DNA of 64,000 nt from Streptomyces cadmiisoli (GTDB lineage: Bacteria > Actinomycetota > Actinomycetes > Streptomycetales > Streptomycetaceae), in contig NZ_CP030073.1 in NCBI RefSeq assembly GCF_003261055.1, forward strand, positions 6,076,001 through 6,140,000, in the 5' to 3' direction. Positions 50,308-57,165 of the stretch are shown in pieces. Positions within the stretch are counted from its first letter, which is position 1, and every line of letters starts with the position of its first letter. The notes under the pieces were generated by a model. That model was not told the DNA's origin and ran no database searches. It was given only the letters and a program-made list of their open reading frames with translations. The position numbers were made by a program, and so were the translations under genes.

Positions 50308-50724
50308 TCAGTACCAGCCGTTCGCCTGCCAGAAGCTCCAGGCGCCCGCGGGGCTGCCGTAGCGGGAGTTCATGTAGTCCAGACCCCACTTGATCTGGGT
50401 CTTGGCGTTGGTCTTCCAGTCCGCGCCGGCGGCGGCCATCTTCGAACCCGGCAGGGCCTGGACCAGGCCGTAGGCGCCGGAGGACGGGTTGGTGGCGTTG
50501 ACGTCCCAGCCGCTCTCATGCTGAACGATCTTGCTGAACGCGTGGTACTGCGAGGCGTTCGGGATCATCTGCTTCGCGATCGCCTGGGCCTGGGTCGCGG
50601 AAGCCATGGGTGCGGCCTGGGCCGGGGCGGCGCTGAGCGCCATTCCGGCGGCAGCGGCGGCGACGGCGACACCCGTGAAGGCCTTCTTCGGGGAAGCGAC
50701 ACGACGGAGCAGGGAGGCGGACAT
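50308..50724 (-). CDS. Secreted lytic transglycosylase-like (SLT) protein
   Basis: 138 residues. Signal peptide (KAFTGVAVAAAAAGMALSAAPAQA) followed by an ~95-residue SLT core: IVQHESGWDVNATNPSSGAYGLVQALPGSKMA (catalytic glutamate in HESGW) and GLDYMNSRYGSPAGAWSFWQANGWY. It cleaves peptidoglycan glycan strands outside the cell. No separate cell-wall-binding domain is present. It has a 5' region with inverted repeats (see below). Confidence 0.92.
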   Translation of the reverse strand: MSASLLRRVASPKKAFTGVAVAAAAAGMALSAAPAQAAPMASATQAQAIAKQMIPNASQYHAFSKIVQHESGWDVNATNPSSGAYGLVQALPGSKMAAAGADWKTNAKTQIKWGLDYMNSRYGSPAGAWSFWQANGWY

Positions 50725-51058: not shown

Positions 51059-51931
51059 TCACGGTGCGGGAGCGTCGAATGTGACCGGCGTCTCGAACGC
51101 GGCCCTTCTGGTGGCCCGGCGCAGCGCCTTGAGGACCGCCGGACCGAGCAGCGCGGTCAGGAGGACCGTCACCAGGGCGCGCCCCAGGTCCCAGCCGAGC
51201 GAGGTGGCCAGGCAGTAGGCCACGAAACGGGCCAGGTTGGCGGGGACCCCGGCGTCCGGGTCGAAGGCGACGTTCGAGGCCAGGGCGCTCATGAAGGGCC
51301 AGCCCGCCAGATTCATGATCGTGCCGTAGGCGAAGGCGGCGAGGAAGCCGTAGACGGCCAGCATCAGCAGCTCGCCGCGACCGCGCAGCCGGTCCGGGCC
51401 CGGCAGCAGGCCCGCGCCCATCGTGAACCAGCCCATGGCCAGCATCTGGAACGGCATCCACGGCCCCACCCCGCCGGTGAGCAGCGCGGACGCGAACATC
51501 GTCACCGAGCCCAGGACGAACCCGAAGCCCGGTCCGAGGACCCGCCCGCTCAGCACCATCAGGAAGAACATCGGCTCGATGCCCGCCGTCCCGGCACCGA
51601 TCGGCCGCAGCGCCGCGCCCGTGGCCGCCAGCACGCCCAGCATCGCCACGGCCTTGGGGCCGAGCCCCGACTCGGAGATCGTCGCCGTGACCACCGCGAC
51701 CAGCAGCACCAGCAGGGCCGCGAACAGCCAGGGGGCGTCCTGCGCGTGGGCCGCGATCGTGGAGGTCGGCGGCGCCAGGAAGGGCCAGCAGAACGCGGCC
51801 AGGCCCACCGCGCCGACCAGTACGAGCGCGGCGACCGAGCGGGGGCCGAGCCGGACGGCCCGCGCCTGGCGCACCCGCGGCGTCCGGGGGGCGGGCGCGG
51901 TCCGGGGCGTGCCGGAGGACCGGGCGGTCAT
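51059..51931 (-). CDS. ECF transporter S (substrate-binding) component, predicted cobalamin-type
   Basis: 290 residues, six TM helices: LVLVGAVGLAAFCWPFL, LFAALLVLLVAVVTATI, VAMLGVLAATGAAL, FFLMVLSGRVLGPGFGFVLGSVTMFASALL and following. The GPWMPFQMLAMGWFTMGAG segment is typical of CbrT/DUF6580-like S components. Its start overlaps the ATPase stop by four bases (ATGA). Specificity for cobalamin is inferred from the riboswitch at the head of the operon. Confidence 0.8.
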   Translation of the reverse strand: MTARSSGTPRTAPAPRTPRVRQARAVRLGPRSVAALVLVGAVGLAAFCWPFLAPPTSTIAAHAQDAPWLFAALLVLLVAVVTATISESGLGPKAVAMLGVLAATGAALRPIGAGTAGIEPMFFLMVLSGRVLGPGFGFVLGSVTMFASALLTGGVGPWMPFQMLAMGWFTMGAGLLPGPDRLRGRGELLMLAVYGFLAAFAYGTIMNLAGWPFMSALASNVAFDPDAGVPANLARFVAYCLATSLGWDLGRALVTVLLTALLGPAVLKALRRATRRAAFETPVTFDAPAP

Positions 51932-53841
51932 GCCAGTGCCTCCCGGACCTGGGCGACGGTGAGCCACCGCTGCGGGGCGAGGATCTTGGTGACCTGCGGT
52001 GCGAAAGAGGGGGAGGAGACCACCACGTCCGCCGTCGGACCGTCCGCGATCACCTCGCCCTCGGCGAGCAGCACCACCCGGTGCGCCAGCTCGGCGGCCA
52101 GCTCGACGTCGTGCGTGGCGAGCACGATCGCGTGCCCGTCGGCCGCCAGCTCGCGCAGCATCACCACCAGACGGGCCTTCGCCGCGTAGTCCAGACCGCG
52201 GGTCGGCTCGTCCAGCAGGAGCAGCGGGGGGCGGCCGGTCAGGACGACGGCGAGGGCCAGCGTGAGGCGCTGGCCCTCGGAGAGGTCGCGCGGGTGCGTG
52301 TCGTCGGTGATCCCGGGAAGGAGGCCGCTCACCAGGTCGCGGCAGGTGCCCGGTGCCGCGCCCGCGTCGGTGTCCGCCGCCGCGCACTCGGCGGCGACGG
52401 TGTCGGCGTAGAGCAGGTCCCGCGGTTCCTGCGGCACGAGGCCCACCCTGCGTACGAGATCGCGGGGCGCGGTGCGGTGCGGGACGGCGCCACCGACCCG
52501 GACCGTGCCGGCGGCCGGTTCGACCAGCCCGACCAGGGCCGACAGCAGCGTGGACTTGCCGGCGCCGTTGCGGCCCATCAGGGCGATCGTCTCGCCGGGG
52601 GAGACGGTGAGGTCGACCCGGCGCAGGGCCGGGACGCGGCCCCGGCGCACGGCCAGGGAGGCGACCTCGGCGAGGAAAGAGGAGGACGGGGTGGCCGGGG
52701 TGTCCCGGGTGCGCCTGCGCAGCAGGCCGCGGCGGGCCGGGGCCTTGCCGGGCGGCGGGGCGGTCGGCGTTGCCAGGGGTCCGGAGCCCTGCCGTTCGTC
52801 GCCGCCTGCCGGTGCCGGTGCCGGAGTCGGAGCCGTGCCGGGGCGTGGGCCGGCGGTCGCTTCGACGGGTTCGGAGCCCCGCCGTGGATCGCCGCCCGCC
52901 GGGGCCGGTCCCGTGCCGGGCGCTGGGGCCGTCGTCGTTTCGAGGGGTTCGCGGTTCCGCAGCCGGTCGCCGCCCGCCGGTGCCGGGCCCGGTCGCGGGC
53001 CGGGTACCACCGCGCGGGGTTCCCGGCCGTCCAGACGGGCGCGCAGTCCGGCGGCCCGGCGGCGGGCGTCGCGCACGGTCAGCGGCAGCGGCGACCAGCC
53101 AGCCACCCGGCCCAGGTCCACGACCGGCGGGTACACCGGCGACCCGGCCATCACGTCGGCGGGGGCGCCGAGCAGCGGGGCGGCGCCCGGGGCGGGCAGC
53201 AGTACCACCTGGTCGGCGTACTGGACGACCCGTTCCAGGCGGTGCTCGGCCATCAGCACCGTCGTCCCCAGGTCGTGCACGAGCCGCTGGAGAACGGCGA
53301 GGACCTCCTCGGCCGCGGCCGGGTCCAGCGCGGAGGTCGGCTCGTCGAGGACCAGCACGCTCGGATGCGGGGTGAGGACCGAGCCGATCGCGACGCGCTG
53401 CTGCTGGCCGCCGGAGAGAGTGGCGAGCGCGCGGTCGCGCAGATCGGCGAGGCCGAGCAGGTCCAGCGTCTCCTCGACCCGGCGGCGCATGACGTCCGGG
53501 GGAAGGCCCAGCGACTCCATGCCGTAGGCGAGTTCGTCCTCCACGGTGTCCGTCACGAAGTGGGACAGCGGGTCCTGGCCCACCGTGCCGACGACGTCGG
53601 CGAGCTCGCGCGGCTTGTGCGTACGGGTGTCCCGGCCCGCGACGGTGACCCGGCCGCGCAGCGTGCCGCCGGTGAAGTGCGGGACCAGCCCGCTCACCGC
53701 GCCGAGCAGGGTGGACTTGCCGACCCCCGACGGACCGACCAGGAGGACGAGTTCGCCCTCCGGGACCTCGAAGTCGACACCCCGCACGGACGGTTCGACC
53801 GCCCCGTCGTAGGTCACGGAGACGTCCTCGAAGCGGATCAT
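51928..53841 (-). CDS. ECF transporter ATPase, two fused ABC domains with repetitive linker
   Basis: 637 residues. Domain 1: Walker A GPSGVGKST (36-44), signature TLSGGQQQRVAIG, Walker B VLVLDEPTSALD. Domain 2 (about 400-637): Walker A GRNGAGKST, degenerate signature DLSEGQRLTLALA, Walker B LLLLDEPTRGLD. Between them a ~95-residue Pro/Gly linker holds three imperfect copies of PAPAGGD...EP/GPL units about 30 residues apart. It replaces separate EcfA and EcfA'. ATG 53841 is the start. Four-base overlaps couple it to both neighbours. Confidence 0.9.
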   Translation of the reverse strand: MIRFEDVSVTYDGAVEPSVRGVDFEVPEGELVLLVGPSGVGKSTLLGAVSGLVPHFTGGTLRGRVTVAGRDTRTHKPRELADVVGTVGQDPLSHFVTDTVEDELAYGMESLGLPPDVMRRRVEETLDLLGLADLRDRALATLSGGQQQRVAIGSVLTPHPSVLVLDEPTSALDPAAAEEVLAVLQRLVHDLGTTVLMAEHRLERVVQYADQVVLLPAPGAAPLLGAPADVMAGSPVYPPVVDLGRVAGWSPLPLTVRDARRRAAGLRARLDGREPRAVVPGPRPGPAPAGGDRLRNREPLETTTAPAPGTGPAPAGGDPRRGSEPVEATAGPRPGTAPTPAPAPAGGDERQGSGPLATPTAPPPGKAPARRGLLRRRTRDTPATPSSSFLAEVASLAVRRGRVPALRRVDLTVSPGETIALMGRNGAGKSTLLSALVGLVEPAAGTVRVGGAVPHRTAPRDLVRRVGLVPQEPRDLLYADTVAAECAAADTDAGAAPGTCRDLVSGLLPGITDDTHPRDLSEGQRLTLALAVVLTGRPPLLLLDEPTRGLDYAAKARLVVMLRELAADGHAIVLATHDVELAAELAHRVVLLAEGEVIADGPTADVVVSSPSFAPQVTKILAPQRWLTVAQVREALA

Positions 53842-55001
53842 GAGGGTTCCTCGGGTGCGGCGGGACGGTCGGGTGCGGGGGTGACGAACGCCGGGAGCAG
53901 GCCGAGCAGGACGGCCGCCGCCGGCCACAGCGGCAGAGTGGGGGCGACCAGCGGCACCACGCCCGGATGCAGCGCCGCCGGGTCCGCGGCGGCGGCCAGC
54001 GCGACCAGCGCGGCGACCGCGGCACCGGACCCGGCGACCAGAAAGGCGGGCAGGTCCCAGGTGTCGGGGCGGTAGCGGGTGCGCAGCGAGCGGCGCCCGC
54101 CCAGCCACAGCCCGCCGAGCGCCGCGCCGACCCCGGCCAGCAGCACCGGCAGTCCGTACGTGCCGCCCTGCGCGGTCAGCAGCCCGTACGTCCCCGCGCA
54201 GACGCCGAGCAGCCCGCACAGGGTGAGGGCCGCGGTCGTACGGCGGACGGCGGCGGGCACCCGGGCGGTACGGCCGTAGCCGCGGGCGTCCATCGCGGCG
54301 GCCAGGGCGACGGAGCGTTCCAGGGCGCCCTCCAGGACGGGCAGTCCGACCTGCGCGAGGCCGCGCACCCCGCGGTCGGGGCGCCCGCGCAGCCGGCGGG
54401 CGGCGCGCAGCCGCCGGACGTCGGCGATGAGGTGCGGCGCGAACGTCATGGCGACGACGACCGCGACACCGGTCTCGTACAGCGCGCCGGGCAGCGACTT
54501 GAGCAGGCGGGACGGGCTCGCCAGGGCGTTCGCGGCGCCCACGCAGATCAACAGGGTGGCCAGCTTCAGACCGTCGTAGAGCGCGAAGACCAGCGTCTCG
54601 GCGGTCACCCGGCCGCCCAGGCGGATGCCCTGCGCCCAGTCGGGGAGGGGGACTTCGGGCAGGGTGAGCAGGGTGTGCGTGCCCGGGATGGGTGAGCCCA
54701 GCGCGACGGCGAAGACGAGGCGGATCGCGAGGACGGCCAGGGCCAGTTTGAGGAACGCGCCGTAGGAGCGGGACCAGGGGGTGTTCGGCCGCCGGGCCGC
54801 CACCACGTAGGCGGAGACCGCGACGAGCAGGGTGAGCAGAAGGGGATTGGTGGTGCGGGTGGCCGCGGTGCCCAGGGCCAGGGACCACAGCCACCACGCG
54901 CCGGGGTGGACGGAGGCGCCGCGCCGGGGCCGGGGCGCGGGCGCGCCGGCGGCCCGGCCCCGCGGGGCGCCGACGCCCGCGCCGCGGGTGCCGCTACGCA
55001 T
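53838..55001 (-). CDS. ECF transporter T (EcfT) transmembrane component
   Basis: 387 residues. The T-family core is clear: TTNPLLLTLLVAVSAYVVA at the N-terminus, FAPHLIADVRRLRAARRLRG (coupling helix with the Ala-Arg-Gly motif) and DARGYGRTARVP (second coupling motif). The C-terminal ~130 residues add four further hydrophobic helices not found in standard EcfT. The first 30 residues are Arg/Pro-rich. Overlaps by four bases with the ATPase and eight with the upstream gene, so the operon is tightly coupled. Confidence 0.88.
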   Translation of the reverse strand: MRSGTRGAGVGAPRGRAAGAPAPRPRRGASVHPGAWWLWSLALGTAATRTTNPLLLTLLVAVSAYVVAARRPNTPWSRSYGAFLKLALAVLAIRLVFAVALGSPIPGTHTLLTLPEVPLPDWAQGIRLGGRVTAETLVFALYDGLKLATLLICVGAANALASPSRLLKSLPGALYETGVAVVVAMTFAPHLIADVRRLRAARRLRGRPDRGVRGLAQVGLPVLEGALERSVALAAAMDARGYGRTARVPAAVRRTTAALTLCGLLGVCAGTYGLLTAQGGTYGLPVLLAGVGAALGGLWLGGRRSLRTRYRPDTWDLPAFLVAGSGAAVAALVALAAAADPAALHPGVVPLVAPTLPLWPAAAVLLGLLPAFVTPAPDRPAAPEEPS

Positions 55002-55668
55002 CCCCGCGCCGGCGCATCTGCCACACCGCCGCCGCGCCGAGCACCGCCACCGCGGCGGCTCCCGCCAGCACGCCGACCGAAGGCCCCCCGCCGTCCGCGT
55101 CCCGCTCGCTCTTCGCGCCGGTCGCCCGCCCCTGCGCGGCAGCGGCCGGTTCGCTGCCCCCGTTGCCCGCCGCCACCTGTTCGCCGCAGCCGCGCCGCGG
55201 ATAGCCCGCGATGGCGCACAGCAGGGCGGCGGAGTCGTAGCGCAGCGGCCGGGCCACGGCCGCCAGGGCCTCGGCGGTCGTCGCGTCGGGGGCGACGCGG
55301 GCGCAGGCCGTGCGCGCGGGCGGCGGGGTCTCGCCGGACGGGGCGTCCGCGGCCGTGCCGAAGTCGAGGACGAGGGCCACCCGCTTGTGGCCCTCGCGCG
55401 CGGGCGTCCCGGCGCACACGGTCTTGAAGTCGGCCGTGCCGCGGGGCTGCGCGGAATCCTGGGAGTCCTCGCTCACCGAGAAACGGAAACCCTGGACGTC
55501 GCCGTCGGCGGGCCGGGCGAGGGAGGGGCCCTGTGTGGCGTACGTCCACCGGTCGCCGTCGCGGTCCCAGAAGGACCAGTAGCGGTACCCGACCGCCTGG
55601 GCCTGGCCGGCGCCGCCGGCCAGGACGACCAGGCACGCGGTCAGGAGCAGCACGGCCCGCCGTATCAC
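54994..55668 (-). CDS. Secreted, membrane-tethered SCO2322-family protein
   Basis: 224 residues from GTG 55668. Signal peptide (LLLTACLVVLAGGAGQAQA), a ~150-residue extracellular domain starting VGYRYWSFWDRDGDRWTYATQGPS, four cysteines (VCAGT, TACARV, LLCAIAG, RGCGEQ) fit for two disulfides, a Gly/Ala linker, one C-terminal TM helix and RRRGD tail. This domain recalls the beta domain (DUF4430-like) of transcobalamin by its YW-rich start; that is my inference. Overlaps the upstream gene by four bases. Confidence 0.8.
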   Translation of the reverse strand: MIRRAVLLLTACLVVLAGGAGQAQAVGYRYWSFWDRDGDRWTYATQGPSLARPADGDVQGFRFSVSEDSQDSAQPRGTADFKTVCAGTPAREGHKRVALVLDFGTAADAPSGETPPPARTACARVAPDATTAEALAAVARPLRYDSAALLCAIAGYPRRGCGEQVAAGNGGSEPAAAAQGRATGAKSERDADGGGPSVGVLAGAAAVAVLGAAAVWQMRRRGDA

Positions 55669-56903
55669 GGCCGCCGCCCCTTGTTGCGGCCGCTGATCAG
55701 GAAGCCGATGCCGATACCGGCGACGAGGCCGACACCGACGATCCACCACACGCCGGCACCGTCGTCCGAGTCGGCCTCGGTCTCGGACCCGGACGACTCG
55801 GCCTCGGGGGACGGGTCGGCCGCGCGCGGCGCCGGGCCGGTCGCGTTGAGGCGCTGGACCAGGTCGGTGCCGCCGAAGTCACGGGGGTCGGTGCCGGTGG
55901 CGTGGGCGGCGAAGACGAGTTGGGCGTAGGCGGACGGGCCGCCCTGCGCGGCCCATTCGGGGCCGTTCCGCTCCAGCCAGGCCAGCGGCTTCGCGGCCCG
56001 CTCGGCGCCGCCCTGCGCGGCGAGCGCGACGACGGCGTCGGCGGTGTTGCCGACGTCCGGCTGGTCCTCGGCGCCGGCGAGGGCGGACATGAGGTGACCG
56101 TCCTTCTTCACGGCCTGCGCGAGATAGGCGGCGCCGCCGGCGGCGGCCTGCTCCGGGGTGGGGTCGCCCTCGGCGCACGAGGCGTCGGCGGCCTTCTCCG
56201 CCGCCGGGGCGGCCAGGCCCTCGCCGAGGGCGCCGATCACCGCAGCCGCCGTCGCGTCGGCGTCGGCCGCCAGCGCGCCCTTCTTGTCCGGCTGGTAGGC
56301 GAAGGCGCCGCCGCCGTCCTCGTCGCAGGGGACGGACAGGGAGAGCAGCGCGTCGTAGGGGGACTTGCCGCCCTTGACGACGTCGCGCGGCTGCTCGCCG
56401 ACGGCGGTGAGGGCGCCGACGACCAGGGAGGTGGAGTTGGCGTCGCTGGGTCCGCCCGCGGTGTAACCCCAGCCGCCGTCCGCCGCTTGAGCCGACTTCA
56501 GCCAGGTGACGGCCTTGCCGGTGACGGCCTCGTGCCCGCCGAGCGCGGCGAGGGCCTGCACCGCGGCGGCCGTCATGTTGGTGTCGACCGGGGTCTTGGC
56601 GTCACAGGCCCTGCCGGGGTCGGCGCGGAACGGGGCGAAGGCGCCGCTCGCGCACTGCTGGCCGGTGAGCCAGTCCACCGCCGCGGCGGCCGGTTCGACG
56701 CCCACCGTGTCCTGGGCGAGCAGGGCGAGCGACTGACGCCAGACACCGTCGTAGGTCGGGTCGGTGCCGCCGTACAGCCCGGCGGGCTTCGCCACGGACG
56801 GCGAGGCCGACGGGGACGGGTCGGCGGCGTGGGCGAACGGGGTCGCGGCGACACCGATCACGGCGGTGGCGGCCAGGACCGCTGCGCTGCGGCGGGCAAT
56901 CAT
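55665..56903 (-). CDS. Secreted, membrane-tethered alpha/alpha-barrel (prenyltransferase-like) protein, possible B12 binder
   Basis: 412 residues. Signal peptide (RRSAAVLAATAVIGVAATPFAHA), then helical repeats with QW-type spacing: AVDWLTGQQCASGAFAPF, TWLKSAQAADGGWGYTAGG, SLSVPCDEDGGGAFAYQP, AYLAQAVKKDGHLMS, PLAWLERNGPEWAAQGGPSAYAQLVF. This is the alpha6/alpha6 barrel shared by terpene cyclases and by intrinsic factor/transcobalamin. No cyclase DxDD motif is seen. It ends in one TM helix and a basic tail. It is the first gene after a cobalamin riboswitch, so a cobalamin-capture role is likely. Confidence 0.83.
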   Translation of the reverse strand: MIARRSAAVLAATAVIGVAATPFAHAADPSPSASPSVAKPAGLYGGTDPTYDGVWRQSLALLAQDTVGVEPAAAAVDWLTGQQCASGAFAPFRADPGRACDAKTPVDTNMTAAAVQALAALGGHEAVTGKAVTWLKSAQAADGGWGYTAGGPSDANSTSLVVGALTAVGEQPRDVVKGGKSPYDALLSLSVPCDEDGGGAFAYQPDKKGALAADADATAAAVIGALGEGLAAPAAEKAADASCAEGDPTPEQAAAGGAAYLAQAVKKDGHLMSALAGAEDQPDVGNTADAVVALAAQGGAERAAKPLAWLERNGPEWAAQGGPSAYAQLVFAAHATGTDPRDFGGTDLVQRLNATGPAPRAADPSPEAESSGSETEADSDDGAGVWWIVGVGLVAGIGIGFLISGRNKGRRP

Positions 56904-57009
56904 GATCGGCGGGTGCCTCTCTGAGCTGTCGGGTCCGTCTTCGGCGCGCGACAGCCGGGCAGCACGGGACACCCCCGGGCGGCTCGGCTCCGCATGCCTC
57001 GACGGTGCC

Positions 57010-57034
57010 GCGCACCGGCCGGTTGCCGGTGCGC
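57010..57034 (-). promoter_or_regulatory. Hairpin immediately downstream of the B12 aptamer
   Basis: GCGCACCGGC (57010-57019) and GCCGGTGCGC (57025-57034) form a 10-bp stem with a 5-base loop in the minus transcript. There is no U-run after it. Candidate expression platform of the riboswitch, about 105 bases before the ATG. Confidence 0.5.
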
Positions 57035-57165
57035 TTGAGCCGGTTCACGTTCCGCGTGGGGCATTCCGGCTCGCCGGGACCCTCTCGGTCCGGCACACGG
57101 CTGCGGGTCAGCGCCGGATTTGCACCGGCTTCCCCCCGTACGGGTGTGATGACGACCCGGCCACT
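57035..57165 (-). ncRNA. Cobalamin (B12) riboswitch aptamer
   Basis: On the minus strand the RNA reads GGGAAGCCGGTGCAAATCC, then GGCGCTGACCCGCAGCCGTG (57093-57132 region), the universally conserved B12 core, followed by a GAGCCGGAATGCC (B12 box-like) segment near 57065. It begins about 260 bases upstream of the alpha/alpha-barrel gene and controls the five-gene operon down to 51059. High cobalamin should repress the operon. Confidence 0.93.

Follow-up and report, generated by a model that had tools for sequence, protein, structure and literature searches.

The operon described here lies in a 64,000-nucleotide stretch of the Streptomyces cadmiisoli genome (contig NZ_CP030073.1, positions 6,076,001 to 6,140,000; the whole stretch is referred to as the window, and its own coordinates are used below). 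A cobalamin riboswitch is followed on the minus strand by five open reading frames (ORFs), whose successive ends overlap by 4, 8, 4, and 4 bp when the starts are taken from the family matches (Table 1). The first two encode members of the SCO2321 and SCO2322 families, hereafter proteins 1 and 2, which as read from the sequence have an N-terminal signal peptide and a C-terminal transmembrane anchor. The other three encode an energy-coupling factor (ECF) importer, and its S component, T component, and two ATPase domains are all present within the operon, with the S component falling 0.5 bit under its Pfam cut-off. The original prediction had placed a cobalamin riboswitch at the head of two tethered proteins and ECF T, A-A', and S genes with overlaps of 4 to 8 bp, and our family searches confirmed this layout, although the aptamer extends slightly beyond the interval 51059..57165 assigned to it. 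The closest named relatives of these proteins are from Streptomyces. A search of the leader 3' of the aptamer for a terminator-like site gave none, while RNA folding of positions 56895-57055 gave a z-score of -2.90, with 2 of 200 shuffled sequences equally or more stable, and the hairpin found there is possibly part of the expression platform.

Table 1. Riboswitch, genes, and beta-domain modules of the operon, in window coordinates
Feature	Positions	Strand	Evidence
Cobalamin riboswitch aptamer RF00174	57039..57182	-	cmscan, 41.4 bits (gathering score 31.5)
GC hairpin, 10 bp, in leader just past aptamer	57010..57034	-	RNA fold
Protein 1, SCO2321 family: signal peptide, alpha/alpha toroid, C-terminal membrane anchor	55665..56903	-	412 aa; NF053823
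Protein 2, SCO2322 family: signal peptide, permuted transcobalamin-type beta domain, membrane anchor	54994..55668	-	224 aa; NF040672
Module X, beta-domain strands 4-5, placed first	55474..55587	-	hmmsearch
Linker, old C-terminus to old N-terminus	55420..55473	-	gap between X and Y profile matches
Module Y, strands 1-2, helix, strand 3, placed second	55174..55419	-	hmmsearch
EcfT, CbiQ family	53838..55001	-	387 aa; PF02361, 30.5 bits (cut-off 25)
EcfA-EcfA' fused ATPase	51928..53841	-	637 aa; PF00005 (ABC_tran), two stretches, E 2.2e-56
S component	51059..51931	-	290 aa; PF12822 (ECF_trnsprt), 30.2 bits (just below cut-off 30.7)

Protein 2 matched the curated model NF040672 (SCO2322_fam) with 235.9 bits against a cut-off of 85, and it consists, between its signal peptide and anchor, of two modules that we defined as X (residues 27-68, YRYW...GFRF) and Y (residues 84-166, RVALVLDFG...GC). 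They are joined by a linker of 18 residues when counted between profile matches, or 28 between modelled strands. The order of these modules became apparent when the SCO2322 model was searched against 396 genomes of the phylum. In four distant genomes (G390, G366, G134, and G284) the model had two matches per frame in reversed order, with its C-terminal half preceding its N-terminal half, and a local profile search agreed. There are 59 loci that we examined, the window included: 44 have the order X-Y (swapped), 14 have Y-X (normal), and one (L106) ends after X. For seven of the 14 normal-order loci (L041, L043, L055, L056, L101, L102, and L104) only X scored, and Y was read from the sequence and then aligned.

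Profile comparisons of the two sets showed how they are related. Swapped and normal-order profiles gave two crossing alignments with nominal hhalign E-values of 7.8e-19 and 4.1e-17, and once the swapped set was reordered these became a single alignment of 120 columns (E 2e-36). Against a DUF4430 profile (28 sequences from 30 loci), the normal-order set aligned over 102 columns (E 6.7e-9) and the reordered swapped set over 99 (E 8.7e-9), while the swapped set as it stands aligned over just 65 (E 2.3e-7). We also rotated the profiles in steps of five positions. The score of the swapped profile against DUF4430 rose from 46.1 (65 columns) unrotated to a peak of 55.3-55.4 (98-99 columns) at 45-60 positions, the normal-order profile peaked unrotated (44.2, 97 columns), and the maximum score in 100 column shuffles of each of three profiles was 18.9. 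Homology to the beta-grasp over the whole domain thus appears after rotation, and the regular strand order 1-2-helix-3-4-5 is not that of the window protein. Because X precedes Y here and in 43 other loci, we read the protein as a permuted derivative rather than a regular member of the transcobalamin clade of SLBB domains. On these sequence comparisons the SCO2322 beta domain is a circular permutant of the transcobalamin-type beta domain, with strand order 4-5-1-2-helix-3, and we infer that the two would superpose in three dimensions. The original prediction that protein 2 recalls the transcobalamin beta domain therefore held for the likeness itself, as the rotated profile and the DUF4430 match indicate, but the domain is a circular permutant and not a plain copy.

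A different explanation of the swapped order would be that SCO2322 has an unrelated fold whose pieces are alike by chance or through fusion of fragments. The SCO2322 model had no PDB match and the best Pfam E-value of protein 2 was 2.6, both of which fit this idea, but both pieces match the normal-order relatives and run continuously through 120 columns once reordered, the shuffled profiles stay far below the peak of 55.4, and the two kinds of protein share an identical place in the operon and corresponding cysteines. We therefore regard an unrelated fold as highly improbable. Structure prediction gave a divided answer on the resemblance to transcobalamin. The model of the window protein (pLDDT, the predicted local confidence, 93) had no order-respecting match in the PDB, whereas the search with a modelled normal-order relative placed transcobalamin, haptocorrin, and intrinsic factor at the top. 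There are several results that count against the permuted transcobalamin relationship: the hhalign E-values are nominal ones from single pairs; the normal-order model has a pLDDT of 66, with residues 66-82 below 50, and its best Foldseek E-value is 1.3e-3; normal-order proteins searched against PF14478 (DUF4430) gave no match at E up to 1; normal-order profiles searched against the PDB by sequence did not find transcobalamin; and the DUF4430 profile found it weakly there (4kki, E 0.03), in third place behind 3u7z and an unrelated SUI1 chain.

The family is common in the class to which the host belongs, as 135 of 394 genomes sampled from it score over the curated cut-off of the SCO2322 model. 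In the phylum-wide draw this was the case in 13 of 396, namely 12 from the window's genus, counting the host genome, plus one from a different family of the same class. The 14 normal-order loci are spread more widely, with six in other classes of the phylum and eight in this class, two of the latter in the window's genus. Matches to EcfT, EcfA-A', and the S component were found in 49 of the 59 loci, with both orders represented. Going by their names, carriers of the swapped order are, among others, Nocardioides, Intrasporangium, Terrabacter, Kribbella, Kitasatospora, Streptacidiphilus, and Nanopelagicales bins, while Streptomyces, Micromonospora, Salinispora, Amycolatopsis, Dactylosporangium, and Kribbella are the names on normal-order proteins. 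Four bins titled Bifidobacterium breve and Fonsibacter lacus (L202, L204, L208, and L233) also have the swapped beta gene, like the Nanopelagicales bins, and these organism labels look doubtful. Four normal-order relatives (P0241-P0243 and P0245) are publicly named "flagellar hook-length control protein FliK"; this label is probably wrong, and the proteins resemble secreted transcobalamin-type beta domains.

Both orders can occur within one genome of the window's genus, as in G171 (L043 and L044) and G592 (L102 and L103). In G592, the swapped toroid-beta pair L103 has no ECF gene in the fetched stretch, and L102, elsewhere in the genome, is a normal-order operon with ECF genes. In G171, a PF14478 match (E 4.7e-8) lies 6.4 kb from the normal-order beta gene and adjoins the toroid of L043. 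The same family had no match in the host genome.

Protein 1 matched NF053823 (SCO2321_fam) with 606.7 bits against a curated cut-off of 300, and its Pfam toroid matches were slightly under their cut-offs. By sequence its PDB matches were squalene-hopene cyclases (8pak, E 1.4e-12) and, more weakly, prenyltransferase beta subunits, while a profile search of the PDB gave 1gsz at E 3.8e-19 and also listed other cyclases, the geranylgeranyltransferase (GGTase) beta subunit, and complement C4. These matches support an alpha/alpha toroid, for which terpenoid cyclases and prenyltransferase beta subunits are the nearest relatives in sequence. The profile search listed no alpha domain of the transcobalamin family; of the toroid of the intrinsic-factor and terpenoid-cyclase kind that had been proposed, sequence supports the toroid and gives no sign of a particular tie to intrinsic factor. 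The catalytic motif of squalene-hopene cyclases is DXDD, and the sole D.DD of protein 1 is at position 378, within the C-terminal linker and outside the toroid. Since it sits there, protein 1 is unlikely to catalyse a cyclase reaction, in agreement with the earlier statement that it lacks the cyclase catalytic residues.

Whether proteins 1 and 2 form a split transcobalamin, as first proposed, depends on how regularly they occur together, and here it must be kept in mind that all loci were found through the beta protein. In its strict form, this explanation holds that the alpha domain comes from SCO2321 and the beta domain from SCO2322, with vitamin B12 bound only between the two. The adjacent genes overlap, and a toroid match lies upstream of the beta gene in 27 of the 44 swapped loci. 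There are also riboswitch-led toroid-beta pairs with no ECF gene in the fetched stretch (L084 and L095), and in two normal-order loci (L055 and L056) toroid and beta domain are found in one protein with cell-wall binding repeats, which is the domain order of transcobalamin. However, the remaining 17 swapped loci have no toroid match, although some of them are short upstream, and this speaks against a fixed pair. We further collected 80 named loci, all X-Y, of which 58 extended 3 kb or more upstream and 5.5 kb or more downstream. The T, A, and S genes follow the beta gene in 56 of these 58, while protein 1 precedes it in 27 and no toroid match was found upstream in 31. These loci were found with six seeds that all lacked a toroid match, and many are from Kribbella, so the set leans towards toroid-less lineages. 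A search for SCO2321 in 21 genomes, most of them picked for having no toroid beside the beta gene, found it in 8, two of them with scores above the cut-off; the 13 genomes without a match include four single-contig ones (G062, G417, G447, and G527), although diverged toroids could escape such a search. The toroid-beta pair is thus real but not obligatory: the proposed division of transcobalamin over two neighbouring proteins keeps its pair and loses its necessity, and binding of B12 only between the two proteins appears doubtful.

Taken together, we think it probable that the operon encodes an ECF-type importer of corrinoids that is repressed by B12 and has a surface receptor of its own, the permuted transcobalamin-type beta domain. 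To judge from the riboswitch family, binding of cobalamin or adenosylcobalamin (AdoCbl) to the leader would switch expression off, and when corrinoids are scarce the ECF transporter (S, T, and A-A') would be made together with the membrane-tethered beta-grasp protein SCO2322. The latter would most likely catch the corrinoid outside the membrane and pass it to the S component. Where the SCO2321 toroid is present, it would probably close over the bound corrinoid like the alpha domain of transcobalamin, and some species would run the system without a toroid that searches can detect. The riboswitch is a recurrent part of this arrangement. A cobalamin-clan riboswitch at the gathering score lies upstream and on the same strand in 27 of the 59 beta-protein loci, the window included (19 of 44 swapped and 8 of 14 normal-order); L106, which has one, and L043, where it is on the opposite strand, are left out of this count. 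As the whole 10.2-Mb host genome was found to contain six cobalamin riboswitches, the pairing with the operon is more than chance. A core-pattern search added riboswitches below the gathering score for L044, L048, L052, L054, and L094. In locus L041, four cobalamin riboswitches and two toroid-beta pairs flank one ECF gene set within an 18-kb stretch.

Instead of complete B12, the substrate could be cobalt or a corrinoid precursor from late in the pathway, for example cobinamide, with the riboswitch just marking the B12 economy of the cell. EcfT belongs to the CbiQ family, which is named for cobalt transport, and ECF-CbrT takes cobinamide besides cobalamin, as the consulted part of its description states (PMC5997447). 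On the other hand, the sole Pfam match of the S component is PF12822, no CbiM family was found among the scanned proteins, and the partner of the importer is a transcobalamin-type domain. Among 40 genomes with an SCO2322 match over the cut-off, CbiC, a gene of corrin synthesis, is missing in 28, yet B12-binding domains are present in all 40. Because cobalt would be of little use to cells that lack CbiC and have B12-binding domains, corrinoid import is likely and is the better reading, and import of cobalt or a precursor seems quite unlikely. There are nevertheless points that weigh on the other side: the 40 genomes were chosen rather than random, with 10 coming from the small-genome family f97; a single gene, CbiC, stands in for a long pathway; CbiC is present in the host genome; and of that genome's five cobalamin riboswitches beyond the window (L001-L005) one, at C1:8131665, lies about 0.7 kb before a PF01497 domain. 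The last two points imply that the operon is one supply among others and that import is not obligatory in this host.

Another possibility is that SCO2322 binds no corrinoid and, held at the membrane, assists the S component as a chaperone or docking subunit. Its gene is followed by the ECF genes in nearly all named loci, which were themselves found through SCO2322, and the S component CbrT binds cobalamin by itself with a nanomolar dissociation constant, according to the portion consulted (PMC5997447). Against this, signal peptide and anchor put the SCO2322 domain on the outside, and the corresponding isolated animal domain was crystallised with cyanocobalamin (5np4, by its entry title). We consider such a chaperone unlikely. 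ECF systems are not otherwise known to require a binding protein in addition to the S component. That Actinomycetes have an ECF importer whose external permuted transcobalamin beta receptor binds cobamide alone, with the toroid as an optional lid, is in our judgement an evenly balanced possibility. Downstream of the operon, at 50308-50724 of the window, there is a small secreted protein that by eye resembles a lytic transglycosylase.

The trees of these loci bear on how the swapped order arose. Neither of two trees supports a single origin: placing the swapped order on a tree of the T, A, and S genes of 49 loci takes four changes, of which starred branches force three, and the beta-domain tree (61 rows) also calls for four, with none of 200 bootstrap trees having one change. 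Nonetheless, forcing the swapped rows together was not rejected by the approximately unbiased (AU) test for the ECF genes (p-AU 0.061, or 0.283 without L089), nor was one swapped clade for the beta domain (p-AU 0.476). The ECF genes of L089 and L100 group as sisters (98, starred), and because L089 has the swapped and L100 the normal order, the simplest reading is that the beta gene was exchanged between operons, with repeated permutation as the alternative. The permutation itself probably passed through an intermediate with tandem domains, and the chain ends of the ligand-binding domain would have moved without loss of the operon. A single protein of L055 (L055:3954-6782) combines a toroid with two normal-order beta domains in tandem and three cell-wall binding repeats, and it would be of the intermediate kind that permutation by duplication needs.

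If these readings are true, SCO2321 and SCO2322, two families that are curated but uncharacterised, gain a function; SCO2322 occurs in roughly a third of the genomes sampled from the class, and streamlined B12 auxotrophs are probably among its carriers. These readings would also link the B12 carriers of animals to actinobacterial import operons. Operons of one kind, in some cases within a single genome, carry the same ligand-binding domain in either strand order, and this natural experiment makes the effect of circular permutation on cobamide binding directly testable.

Among known systems, the beta domain of transcobalamin, intrinsic factor, and haptocorrin (transcobalamin clade, SLBB superfamily) is homologous to SCO2322 and is C-terminal and in contact with B12, but unlike these proteins SCO2322 is permuted, tethered to the membrane, and encoded separately from the toroid. 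The concept of transcobalamin-type B12 scavenging in bacteria is already known, since Burroughs et al. 2007 (PMC1796856), in the portion available, reported SLBB domains of the transcobalamin type from bacteria, in many cases accompanied by toroids and encoded in CbiO/CbiQ operons, and proposed this role. Those systems share with ours a secreted or anchored SLBB domain, an alpha/alpha toroid, ECF-type genes, and predicted B12 scavenging. That portion of the paper places the clade in low-GC Gram-positives, planctomycetes, and euryarchaea and does not mention a permuted form, and PF14478 is unmatched in our host genome. We found no description of a permuted transcobalamin-type form in the open-access literature searched; as far as our searches go, what is new is that the system has an actinobacterial form, that SCO2321 and SCO2322 belong to it, that the domain is circularly permuted, and that the toroid is optional. 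ECF-CbrT of Lactobacillus delbrueckii (PMC5997447) is likewise an ECF importer of cobalamin, a role that is predicted for the window operon, but the part of that report consulted describes no external receptor protein, and CbrT uses an ECF module in common with other S components. In acI freshwater actinobacteria, strains without cobalamin synthesis have an ECF module behind cobalamin/AdoCbl riboswitches, which Kang et al. 2017 (PMC5301498) proposed to be a cobalamin transporter; a surface protein is not mentioned in the part of the paper at hand. This module is probably the same operon that we see in the small f97 genomes, which would themselves be of the acI kind. Finally, the UFD domain of eukaryotic E1 enzymes is also a circularly permuted beta-grasp (PMC1949818, in the excerpt consulted), in a lineage other than that of SCO2322 and with its first strand at the C-terminus.

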